Of a DNA stretch of 47,523 nucleotides, positions 1,308-5,643 are shown in pieces. Source of the DNA: Methylacidimicrobium tartarophylax (GTDB lineage: Bacteria; Verrucomicrobiota; Verrucomicrobiia; Methylacidiphilales; Methylacidiphilaceae); the NCBI RefSeq assembly GCF_902143375.2, contig NZ_CABFVA020000015.1, positions 1 to 47,523 on the forward strand, in the 5' to 3' direction. The position numbers and the translations under genes are program-made. The notes under the pieces are model-generated. The model did not search any database, was not told where the DNA came from, and saw only the letters and a list, made by a program, of their open reading frames with translations. Each line of letters starts with the position of its first letter. The stretch's first letter is position 1.

Positions 1308-2573
1308 CTATCCGCCTTCCCGGGAGCCCGGCACAAAATCGTGCAGGAATCGAGCGTATACTTTGGCGGTGGTCACGAGATCCGCAACGGAGATCCGCTC
1401 CTCGATGGCATGGATGTTTTTCCCTTCGACCCCGTAGCCGATCGTGTCAATCCCTCGTTTCCGCGCATAGTAGTGCATGTCGGTCGCGCCCCGGTTCACG
1501 GTGAAGCGCGCACGCCCTCCCCGCACCCCTTGCACCGCTCTTCGGAACGCCTGAGGCAATGCGGAGAGGGGAGAGAGAGCACACGGGGCCGTCGTGTGAA
1601 TCTGCCGAATCCGAATCCCCATGCGGCATTTCGCAGCGGCCGATTGGATGATCTCGCGCAACTCCCGCTCGACCACGTTCAACTCCTCGGACGGAGTGAG
1701 CCTCCGATCGACCGTGAAGCTCGCCTCTCCCGGAATGATATTCACCTTTGCCGCCTTCCCGGGGCCAAAGACCCCGCCCAGGTTGACCACGGGCTCCAGT
1801 TCTTCGCCCGACGGAGTCACAAAGCGCTTGCGAGGATCAGCCAGAGTCCGCTTGATCTCCGGTTCGATGCGCGAGACAAGCGCGATCATCTCCTCGAAGG
1901 CATTCACGGTCCGGCTTGGATAGGCGGAGTGACCTCCTTTGCCGAGCACCGTCACTTCCCACTGAACGATGCCATTGTGGCCGATGCCGATCTTACCCGC
2001 AGCTCCCCCTTCGCAAACGACGGCAAAATCCGGGGTTCTCCTCCGCTGGCTGACGAGATAGCCTGTGCCGAGTTCTCCGCCGATTTCCTCATCGGCCACG
2101 AAAGCCAACTCCACGTTGACATGAGGTTTGAGCGCCGTCCGCCGCAACGCCTCCACCGCAAAGAGGCTAGCGACCAGGGAGCCTTTCATGTCGGCGGTTC
2201 CGCGACCGAACAACCAGCCACCCTCGCGCTTGCCCGAAAAGGGAGGATGTTTCCAAATTCCCGCCGCGGGAACGACGTCGTAATGGGAGTTGAACTGGAC
2301 GGTCTTTTTCGCGCCAACGTCCCAGCGTCCGACCAGATTATGACGAGGAAAGTCCGCAAAGTCCGCCCGGAGAGTTTTGGCGACGATCTCCCGAGGCACC
2401 GTTACGATTTCCGTGGAAAGGCCCATCTCCCGAAGCTTGGCATCTAACCTCTCGACCAGATCCGTATAATGTTCCCCCGGGGGATTCACGGTCGGGATGC
2501 GCACGATCTCCGCGAGAAACGCACAGAGATCTTCCTCGTGTTCGGCAAGCCAGGTTTCCGCATCAGTATTCAC
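1308..2573 (-). CDS. M20 family metallopeptidase (ArgE/DapE/CPG2-like)
   Basis: A 421-residue cytosolic zinc hydrolase of the M20 family, which removes acyl groups or cleaves small peptides. Visible metal and catalytic positions follow the family order: H97 and D99 in NSHYDVVPA, D128 in GRGTADMKG, the DEE pair near 161-163, E188 in VCEGG, and a late histidine in TDMHYYARKRG. The bacterial dimerisation domain is marked by GHNGIVQWEVTVLGKGGHSAYP. A GTG start at 2573 is chosen because a strong AGGAGGGAG Shine-Dalgarno lies 7 bases upstream; the open frame extends further but without a ribosome site and into the divergent tldD region. Whether it acts on acetylornithine, succinyl-diaminopimelate or a dipeptide cannot be read from sequence. 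Confidence 0.93.
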   Translation of the reverse strand: MNTDAETWLAEHEEDLCAFLAEIVRIPTVNPPGEHYTDLVERLDAKLREMGLSTEIVTVPREIVAKTLRADFADFPRHNLVGRWDVGAKKTVQFNSHYDVVPAAGIWKHPPFSGKREGGWLFGRGTADMKGSLVASLFAVEALRRTALKPHVNVELAFVADEEIGGELGTGYLVSQRRRTPDFAVVCEGGAAGKIGIGHNGIVQWEVTVLGKGGHSAYPSRTVNAFEEMIALVSRIEPEIKRTLADPRKRFVTPSGEELEPVVNLGGVFGPGKAAKVNIIPGEASFTVDRRLTPSEELNVVERELREIIQSAAAKCRMGIRIRQIHTTAPCALSPLSALPQAFRRAVQGVRGGRARFTVNRGATDMHYYARKRGIDTIGYGVEGKNIHAIEERISVADLVTTAKVYARFLHDFVPGSREGG

Positions 2574-2743: not shown

Positions 2744-4312
2744 ATGAGCATCTCCCGCAGAAAATTCCTGCAAAGCCTGGCTGCCGGCCTCCTCGGGGGC
2801 GGCGCGCCGCTGGCCGCCGCAACGTCGGAAGGACGATCTTCCCGTCGGGAGGAGGCCGCCCGGCTCGCGGAGGCCGCGCTGGATGCAGCCAGAACCGCCG
2901 GTGCCGGATACGCAGACGTTCGCGTCCTTTTTTCCGAATCCGAAGTGCTCTCCGCTCGGGAAGAACGAATCGAGAACGTCGAGGTCTCCGCCAGCAGCGG
3001 TCTTGGGGTGCGGGTTCTTGTGAACGGCGTTTGGGGATTCAGCTCCGCAAGCGTGCTCGACCCAGCGCACGCGAGCGCGTGCTCGCGCAGCGCGGTGGAG
3101 ATGGCGAAATCCAACCGTGCTCTGGCCACGCAACGGGTCGAGCTGGAGCGGGTCGAAGCGAGGATCGACCGTTGGCGCGTGCCGATCGAGCAGGATCCTT
3201 TCTCCATCCCCTTGGATCAAAAGGCAGAGGAGCTTCTCGGAATCAATGCGGCGGCCAGGGCGGCAGGCGCTCCTTTCTGCCGAAGCTTTTTCCTCTTCGT
3301 CCGGCAGGAAAAGTTTTTCGCCTCGAGCGGCGGCTCGTTTCTCGAGCAGCTCTTTTTCCGCACCTATCCGCGTCTCACCGTCACCGCAACCGATCCTGGT
3401 ACCGGGCGCTTTGCCAACCGCTCTAGTTTCCTTCCGCCGCGGGCAGCCGGTTATGAATATATCCGTTTGCACGACTGGAAACAGGAGGCACGTCAGGCAG
3501 CCGAGGATGCGAGCCGAAAGCTCAAGGCCAAGCCTGTCGCCGCAGGCAAGAAGGACCTGGTTCTCCATCCCACCAACCTATGGCTTACCCTCCACGAAAC
3601 CATCGGCCATTCCACCGAACTCGACCGCGCGTTCGGCTATGAGGCGGGTTTTGCCGGCACGACATTCGTCAAGCCCGCCGACCGGGGCCATTTGCGCTTT
3701 GCCAGTGAGATCGTCACGGTGATGGCCGACCGCGATCAGCCGGGCGGCCTGGCCACGGCGGCCTATGACGATGACGGGATGCCGGCTCGTTACGCCCGAT
3801 TCCCGATCATCTCCCGCGGGAGGTTTGAAAATTTTCAGATGGCCATCGGCCAGTCCCGCTGGATCGGCCTCCCTCACTCCAACGCCTGCTCCTTCGCGGA
3901 AGGACACGCCTACTTTCCGATCCAGCGCATGCCCAACATCTCTCTACAGCCCTCGCAACAGGATGTCTCCCTCGAGGAGTTGATCGCAGGCGTCGAGGAC
4001 GGGGTCTATATCGTCGGGGACGGAAGCTGGAGCATCGATCAGCAGCGCAAGAACTTTCAGTTCGGCGGACAGCTCTTCTACGAGATCCGGAAGGGGAAGC
4101 TCGGCGAGATGCTCCGTGATGTTGCCTATCAGAGCACGACCGTCCCTTTCTGGAATGCTTGCGATGGGCTCGGTGGGGTAAAGGAATACTGGCTCGGCGG
4201 AACGCTCTCCTGCGGCAAGGGTCAGCCGGTCCAGTCCGCACCCGTCTCGCATGGAGCCGTCCCCGCCCGCTTCCGGGGAATCCAGATCCTCAACACCGGG
4301 AGAGGCATATGA
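2744..4312 (+). CDS. tldD: TldD metalloprotease with Tat signal peptide
   Basis: A 522-residue TldD/PmbA-family protein. Family members form TldD-TldE heterodimers that degrade or trim unfolded and natural-product peptides (microcin B17, CcdA in E. coli). The zinc site HETIGH is at residues 284-289, and the typical NACSFAEGHAYFPIQRMPN block follows. Unusually, residues 4-10 (SRRKFLQ) match the twin-arginine consensus and are followed by a hydrophobic, Ala/Gly-rich segment ending in APLAAA (residues 21-26), a probable cleavage region. This predicts folded export by the Tat route, whereas E. coli TldD is cytosolic. The stop overlaps the tldE start by four bases (ATGA at 4309-4312), so the two are translationally coupled. 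Catalytic assignment is secure; periplasmic location is inference. Confidence 0.95.
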   Translation: MSISRRKFLQSLAAGLLGGGAPLAAATSEGRSSRREEAARLAEAALDAARTAGAGYADVRVLFSESEVLSAREERIENVEVSASSGLGVRVLVNGVWGFSSASVLDPAHASACSRSAVEMAKSNRALATQRVELERVEARIDRWRVPIEQDPFSIPLDQKAEELLGINAAARAAGAPFCRSFFLFVRQEKFFASSGGSFLEQLFFRTYPRLTVTATDPGTGRFANRSSFLPPRAAGYEYIRLHDWKQEARQAAEDASRKLKAKPVAAGKKDLVLHPTNLWLTLHETIGHSTELDRAFGYEAGFAGTTFVKPADRGHLRFASEIVTVMADRDQPGGLATAAYDDDGMPARYARFPIISRGRFENFQMAIGQSRWIGLPHSNACSFAEGHAYFPIQRMPNISLQPSQQDVSLEELIAGVEDGVYIVGDGSWSIDQQRKNFQFGGQLFYEIRKGKLGEMLRDVAYQSTTVPFWNACDGLGGVKEYWLGGTLSCGKGQPVQSAPVSHGAVPARFRGIQILNTGRGI

Positions 4313-5643
4313 TTTTGTCGGAAGGGGAGGCCCGGGAGCTCGGAACCAAACTTCTCTCCTATTCCCGAGCGGAAACCGCTGTCGCCGAAATTTCCGGCTG
4401 GAGCCGCCTCAATGTGCGCCTCGCCTGCAACACGGTCACGACGGACGGAGAGGACGAGGGCTTCCATTGCCGCGTCGAGTCCTCCTTCGGAAAACGGAGA
4501 GGGGAAGCAGCGGGAAACAAGGCGGATCCTAACGACCTTGCCGCGCTCGTCCGCCGTTCGGAGGAGGTGGCTCGCGTTTCTCCGGAAGATCCGGAATTTC
4601 TCCCCCCGCCCGGAGCACAGACCTATCCTCCCGCCAAGGGCTATTCCTCCGAGGCAGCCCGCCTTTCAGCAAAGGATCTGGCAGAAAAGGGGCAGACGGT
4701 CCTCGCCGCGGCGCAAGCCAAGCGAGTCGTTGGGGCGGCTTTCCTAGAATGCGAAAGCAGCTTTTCGGCCTATACGGCCACAACCGGCCTTTGGGTCTTC
4801 CAGCAGGCGACTCGCCTTCAATATACGGTCTCCGCCCGCACTCGGGACGGAGAGGGCGCGGGCTGGGCGGCGAGCGCAGCCTATTCTCCTAATGAGATCT
4901 CCCTCCCCGTCCTCGTCGAACGGGCAATGGAGAAGGCGCTCCGCTCACGCCATCCTCAACCTCTTGCACCGGGAAGTTACACCGTCCTGCTCGAGCCTTC
5001 GGCCGTATGCGACCTGGTCGGCATGCTCCTGTTTTCGCTCCACGCCCGTCCCGCGGACGAGGGGCGCAGCTTTCTTTCTCGCCCGGGAGGAAAAACGGCT
5101 TTGGGAGAAACGCTCTTCTCGGACCTGATTTCGCTCCGCTCCGATCCGGAAGACGCGGTGGCTCCCGGCTCCATCTATTCGACGGATGGTCTTCCGGCAA
5201 CACCCAGGGTCTGGATCGACCAGGGCAAGCTCCAAGAGTTGATTCGCCCTCGTTTTTGGGCGCAAGAGAAGAAGGCCCCAACGATTCCCGAACCAACCAA
5301 TCTGCTCCTGTCCGGCAGCGACCGCTCGACCGAAGAGCTGATCCAACGCATCGATCGAGGCGTGCTCGTGACCCGACTCTGGTATATCCGAACGGTCGAT
5401 CCTCGCACGCTCCTGCTCACCGGGCTCACTCGCGATGGGACCTTTTGGATCGAGAAGGGGAAGATCGCCCACCCGGTAAACAACTTCCGTTTCAACGAAA
5501 GCCCGGTGACCCTTCTCAAGAATGCCCTGGCTCTCGGAAAGCCCGAGGCTACCGTAGGATCGGAGGTCGACGATCTCCCCGCTCGGGTGCCCGCGCTGGT
5601 CGCAAAGGAGTTCACCTTCTCGTCGGTCTCGCAAGCCTCCTAA
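4309..5643 (+). CDS. tldE: TldE/PmbA-type partner of TldD
   Basis: A 444-residue member of the same superfamily as TldD but without an HExxxH zinc site, as expected for the non-catalytic TldE/PmbA subunit. The C-terminal block VTRLWYIRTVDPRTLLLTGLT and the later HPVNNFRFNES motif are characteristic. The open frame reaches upstream into tldD, but ATG 4309 is chosen because of the four-base overlap with the tldD stop and the family's usual length. There is no signal peptide, in contrast to TldD. In known systems both subunits are needed for proteolysis, so this protein either travels with TldD as a Tat hitchhiker or the pair is split across the membrane. Confidence 0.93.
   Translation: MILSEGEARELGTKLLSYSRAETAVAEISGWSRLNVRLACNTVTTDGEDEGFHCRVESSFGKRRGEAAGNKADPNDLAALVRRSEEVARVSPEDPEFLPPPGAQTYPPAKGYSSEAARLSAKDLAEKGQTVLAAAQAKRVVGAAFLECESSFSAYTATTGLWVFQQATRLQYTVSARTRDGEGAGWAASAAYSPNEISLPVLVERAMEKALRSRHPQPLAPGSYTVLLEPSAVCDLVGMLLFSLHARPADEGRSFLSRPGGKTALGETLFSDLISLRSDPEDAVAPGSIYSTDGLPATPRVWIDQGKLQELIRPRFWAQEKKAPTIPEPTNLLLSGSDRSTEELIQRIDRGVLVTRLWYIRTVDPRTLLLTGLTRDGTFWIEKGKIAHPVNNFRFNESPVTLLKNALALGKPEATVGSEVDDLPARVPALVAKEFTFSSVSQAS

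Follow-up and report, generated by a model that had tools for sequence, protein, structure and literature searches.

A Tat signal conserved on TldD and absent from TldE points to probable hitchhiker export of a TldD/E metallopeptidase

Introduction

TldD and TldE are treated as cytoplasmic proteins. The tldD gene of Methylacidimicrobium tartarophylax described here opens with a predicted twin-arginine (Tat) signal peptide and the overlapping tldE gene opens without one, which raises the question of where the two proteins work and how an untagged subunit would reach the compartment of a tagged one. The gene pair lies within positions 1 to 47,523 of a contig (NZ_CABFVA020000015.1), read on the forward strand, a stretch hereafter called the window, with positions counted from 1. 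The original prediction, made from these letters alone, held that in this lineage the folded pair may be exported together, with TldE as a hitchhiker on TldD.

Roles ascribed to TldD/E include the maturation of peptide antibiotics and the turnover of antitoxins, and the general role is called elusive by Ghilarov et al. (2017, PMC5810440). No exported TldD features in the titles and abstract openings of the matches listed, though an account of one may be found in the family review by Vobruba et al. (2022, PubMed 36155963).

Results

The TldD N-terminus

The tldD gene (positions 2744..4312, + strand) codes for a 522-aa subunit of an M103-type metalloprotease with an N-terminal Tat signal, an assignment based on the open reading frame, the AlphaFold match described below and Pfam, which matched all three PmbA_TldD domains (1–3). 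The protein begins MSISRRKFLQSLAAGLLGGGAPLAAA or, in a longer form of the opening, MSISRRKFLQSLAAGLLGGGAPLAAATSEGR. Its predicted signal peptide comprises residues 1–26 (positions 2744..2821, + strand), with SRRKFLQ at residues 4–10, a hydrophobic h-region and APLAAA at residues 21–26; the cleavage site is put behind residue 26 as a guess. These two motifs and the HETIGH at residues 284–289 are all present in the translation, just as the original prediction had them, and by our own script and the sequence the features of a Tat substrate, a twin-arginine pair, a hydrophobic stretch and an AxA-like end, lie at the true N-terminus. Proteins of this kind have probably been marked as carrying Tat signals in public annotation already.

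Homologues starting at a downstream Met without the arginine pair had been named as evidence that would count against export. For the window TldD, ATG 2744 is the sole in-frame ATG, GTG or TTG from the stop at 2729 to about residue 40, so that the signal is no artefact of start choice and a signal-less start slightly downstream is ruled out. The AlphaFold model of TldD (mean pLDDT 90.5) draws a helix at residues 5–17, falls below 50 at residues 1–4 and 10–30, and is confident from about residue 31; that of TldE (mean pLDDT 95.4) is confident from residue 1.

The signal assignment rests on relatives and on the invariance of R5, R6 and F8 as well as on this low model confidence. Across 11 aligned TldD rows, the window and ten others down to 44% identity, no column ahead of residue 45 is invariant except M1, R5, R6, F8 and L12, and the remainder of the signal region drifts while RR-x-F stays; conservation of the arginine pair, a check proposed at the outset, thus extends to all 11 rows. 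A further family member (L004) shares the TldD start of the window, and in another genome of the same order (L184) TldD reads VNRRSFLRSMGG.

The Tat test and its background

The frequency of such signals was assessed with a script of our own, which is neither SignalP nor TatP and which tries any start codon and scores a twin pair, an uncharged stretch and hydrophobicity. An alignment-based scan of species genomes returned at least 586 relatives, and the best 80 loci were analysed; together with the window's family, the window included, and locus L015, they supplied 130 full-length TldD, from which canonical TldD and short pieces were excluded. The test was passed by 113 of these 130 rows and failed by 17; the rows are not independent, since closely related sequences and tandem duplicates are numerous among them. 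It was passed by 0/120 TldE frames (four of them from canonical pairs, some cut short) and by 20 of 611 other frames at the same loci, most of which are no real genes; these background rates rule out a chance motif. The bare RR-x-hydrophobic pattern, which is less specific than the full test, matches 110 of the 130 TldD and a single one of the 120 TldE frames, with RK or KR in 18 more TldD and no pair in 2; the matches include L052, yet its N-terminus is garbled and untrustworthy. TatC was found in the window's genome (G000) and in all 30 other genomes searched.

TldE and the gene overlap

The tldE gene (positions 4309..5643, + strand) codes for a 444-aa non-catalytic partner without a signal peptide, as judged from Pfam PmbA_TldD_3rd and a model match to 6j6a. 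Its ATG at 4309 falls within an ATGA (positions 4309..4312, + strand) whose last three bases, 4310–4312, are the tldD stop codon. The claimed four-base overlap is therefore real, as is the signal-free start of tldE: the protein begins MILSEGEARELG, and neither a Tat nor a Sec signal is visible in its sequence. The overlap would be expected to couple translation of the two genes. Within TldE, Pfam matched the C-terminal domain, placed the central domain just under its cut-off and returned no match for domain 1; HExxxH is absent from the sequence. The window thus presents what a hitchhiker pair should, an adjacent partner gene without a signal.

In the 118 frames measured, TldE begins 8–16 residues ahead of the core, a figure that describes and does not test, because the start codon nearest the core was the one chosen. 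One TldE (L055) has a fairly hydrophobic start. In the draft genome G004, of the same genus, a single in-frame stop breaks the tldE of L004 into two frames, 210 and 296 codons long, which may reflect an assembly error or gene decay.

Fold and active site

The best PDB match of TldD is E. coli TldD (5njc; TM 0.75 by query, 0.82 by target) and that of TldE is Thermococcus TldE (6j6a; TM 0.85/0.86), and the predicted mass of the pair is about 102–105 kDa. The window proteins share with E. coli TldD/TldE (PmbA; MEROPS M103) the same folds, the HExxxH and third ligand on TldD, and a motif-free TldE. They differ in that window TldD adds the Tat signal, is only about 21% identical to E. coli TldD in the structural alignment, and scores far under the NCBIfam equivalog cut-offs for E. 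coli and archaeal TldD (44.3 against 513 and 121.5 against 635 bits).

For E. coli TldD, Ghilarov et al. (2017) named the residues that bind the metal or act as a clamp; their counterparts in the window are H284, E285, H289, E292, D294, C490 and K492. In an alignment of 144 TldD, canonical proteins included, H284, E285, H289 and E292 are identical in 144/144, D294 in 143/144 and K492 in 142/144. The HETIGH (residues 284–289; positions 3593..3610, + strand) supplies the metal-binding HExxxH, and Cys490 (positions 4211..4213, + strand) aligns with E. coli Cys454, to which the same paper assigns the role of third metal ligand (PMC5810440). The zinc site, described as intact in the original prediction, is so.

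Position 490 is Asp in 109 of the 144 aligned TldD, Cys in 34 and a gap in one. Among these sequences Asp is confined to the Tat-bearing branch; the rows that retain Cys are those of the window's family, the Verrucomicrobial ones except L015, the canonical ones, one Chlorobial row, one Ignavibacterial row and two with the label Alphaproteobacteria or Methylocystis. Asp as third ligand in Gemmatimonas has already been noted in PMC5810440. The exchange of Cys for Asp might, as a guess, be an adaptation to an oxidising compartment; window TldD itself retains the Cys.

Distribution of the tagged branch

In the window's family one TldD was found in 12 of 13 genomes (genus g3 has none), and the same 12 hold exactly two PF19289 places each, one TldD and one TldE. 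TldE is therefore left without a visible untagged TldD partner, and a second, cytoplasmic TldD/E in the family is ruled out for each of the 12 genomes. Beyond the family TldD is patchy, with 12 of 141 sampled genomes of the class matched, two of them outside the family.

Contrary to what had been supposed, the trait is not special to this lineage. The record labels of the best 80 of at least 586 relatives place the branch in eight phyla, namely Bacteroidota, Chlorobiota, Ignavibacteriota, Acidobacteriota, Gemmatimonadota, Pseudomonadota, Myxococcota and Verrucomicrobiota, although labels may err where, as for many relatives, the records are metagenome bins; a lineage quirk is thereby ruled out. 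Within the stretch examined, 78 of these 80 distant loci have a TldE downstream of TldD, and in the remaining two the sequence stops just past TldD (a contig end in L091, the end of the stretch in L070). More than one full-length TldD is present in 35 of the best 80 of at least 586 loci, and the Bacteroidota rows (L045–L111) show tandem TldD-TldE-TldD-TldE arrays.

A quick tree of 66 rows, built with the N-terminal part removed, set the tagged branch apart as a clade separate from its 12 canonical rows; E. coli TldD itself is absent from the tree. A row without a signal (L016) fell at the base of the branch, and its placement is unsure because it sits on a very long branch. Other signal-less TldD are L034, the third copy in L066, and a Nonomuraea homologue (L179) that starts directly at the core and is 43% identical from residue 66 on. 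By eye, an untagged canonical pair accompanies the tagged pair in three genomes, one from Stenotrophomonas, one from Luteimonas and one from Archangium.

Gene neighbours

Upstream of tldD and divergent from it lies a gene for a peptidase of the M20/DapE-ArgE type (positions 1308..2573, − strand; Pfam Peptidase_M20), with a probable GTG start at 2573 and no visible signal. In the original prediction it would fit further breakdown of peptides in the cytosol; the case for export does not depend on this neighbour. The adjacency itself recurs, in 11 of the 12 loci of the window's family, but over the stretches examined no M20 peptidase was found near tldDE at the 80 distant loci (best 80 of at least 586), nor at L007 or L015; with 11/12 in the family set against 0/80 elsewhere, it argues only weakly for a shared pathway.

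Around the Bacteroidota loci a MoxR-type ATPase and a DUF4159 protein recur at 18 loci each, a membrane protein without a Pfam match at 15 and a DUF4175-like protein at 12, and a further neighbour family, DUF58-like by eye only, is found at 17 loci. A MoxR/DUF4159 link was rejected for the window, whose genome holds no DUF4159.

Tagged TldD in other clades

In a Pyrinomonadaceae locus (L114) a TldD of canonical type carries a Tat signal by eye, and 83 of 119 sampled Acidobacteriota genomes matched this protein. At the Acidobacteriota loci L149–L178, 5 of 30 TldD pass the script and 9 of 30 are Tat-like by eye, and at the fetched loci 0/20 TldE pass. The canonical-type TldD of this phylum are mixed, some with a Tat signal (in L171 and L172 followed by a lipobox, by eye) and others with none. 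Two clades of TldD thus include proteins with Tat signals and none of the TldE examined has one, the outcome expected if TldE rides along.

A TldD-related family of Myxococcota (L116, L119–L148) is TldD-like and has the HExxxH in common with the window protein, but differs from it in that the N-termini of many members look hydrophobic and Sec-like by eye. Of 30 loci, a partner was found in two, L119 and L120, and there both partners have such an N-terminus; the other stretches are short and reach about 1.5 kb beyond the gene.

Discussion

Probable hitchhiker export and its alternatives

The signal and its conservation, the untagged TldE, the active-site residues, the lack of a visible second pair in the family and the presence of TatC are firm. 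With a signal conserved on TldD, none on TldE and no other partner visible in the family, hitchhiker export of TldD/E is the best-supported reading of the locus, and we consider it likely that the folded pair is co-exported by the Tat system to trim unfolded peptides beyond the cytoplasm; that the proteins pair, leave the cytoplasm together and act on substrates there is inferred from sequence. TldD and TldE would be translated from the overlapping genes and would fold, load metal and pair in the cytoplasm. The twin-arginine signal on TldD would then bring the folded pair across the Tat translocase, with TldE as its hitchhiker, and the closed shell would, once outside, admit only the N-termini of unfolded peptides and trim them.

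A variant of this reading, and one that does not exclude it, is that exported TldD retains an uncleaved signal, so that the pair would stay tethered to the inner membrane on its outer side. Many Bacteroidota TldD signals lack an obvious AxA site by eye, and in some relatives a lipobox follows the Tat signal (L098 by script; L088, L171 and L172 by eye), an arrangement that makes sense only if TldD is exported. In the window TldD, by contrast, APLAAA stands right ahead of the mature start, and we regard the anchored form as possible but doubtful.

Less probable is that TldD travels alone and acts outside either as a homodimer or alongside some other partner, while TldE stays in the cytoplasm, for example as a chaperone or proofreader released before export. 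Besides the lack of a Tat signal on TldE, three loci (L092, L097, L106) in which two tandem TldD precede a single TldE would suit this scheme. TldE need not travel, moreover, if a Sulfolobus TldD homodimer is active as claimed, a report that is cited and disputed in PMC5810440. In the same paper, activity of the E. coli proteins was seen only with both subunits; the window's TldE retains the TldE fold, and in the tagged branch the gene follows tldD almost without exception among the best 80 of at least 586 loci (78/80); we therefore think solitary export unlikely.

Least credible of all is a non-working signal on a TldD/E that is cytoplasmic as in E. coli. In its favour, five sister-genus TldD, which read MNCDRRNFIK, require a TTG start and keep RRxF, yet fail the Tat test because a Lys interrupts their weak hydrophobic stretch, and the bare RR pattern occurs in 3 of the 14 canonical TldD taken from the same phylum. 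Against it, 0/14 of those pass the full test, the branch passes it far above the rate of background frames, the N-terminal stretch lies outside the confidently modelled fold, and lipoboxes follow Tat signals.

Implications

Hitchhiker export of a TldD/E pair would have its closest counterparts in the Tat hitchhiker complexes, among them periplasmic NiFe hydrogenases and formate dehydrogenases (PMC10924467) and PaoABC (PMC4273604). The likeness is that there, too, the signal is on one subunit only; the difference is that those are redox enzymes, whereas TldD/E is a metallopeptidase.

The wider proposal, which we hold to be evenly poised, is that the tagged proteins form a second, extracytoplasmic TldD/E branch in eight phyla, often tandem-duplicated, which would be carried by Tat as a preassembled, metal-loaded heterodimer, would trim unfolded N-termini and has mostly exchanged Cys for Asp, perhaps as a fit to oxidising surroundings, with Tat signals on TldD elsewhere as well and on no TldE examined. 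If hitchhiker export is true, it would add to the known complexes a case with a peptidase in place of a redox enzyme, and a branch exported across many phyla would mean a second job for TldD/E, in the cell envelope.
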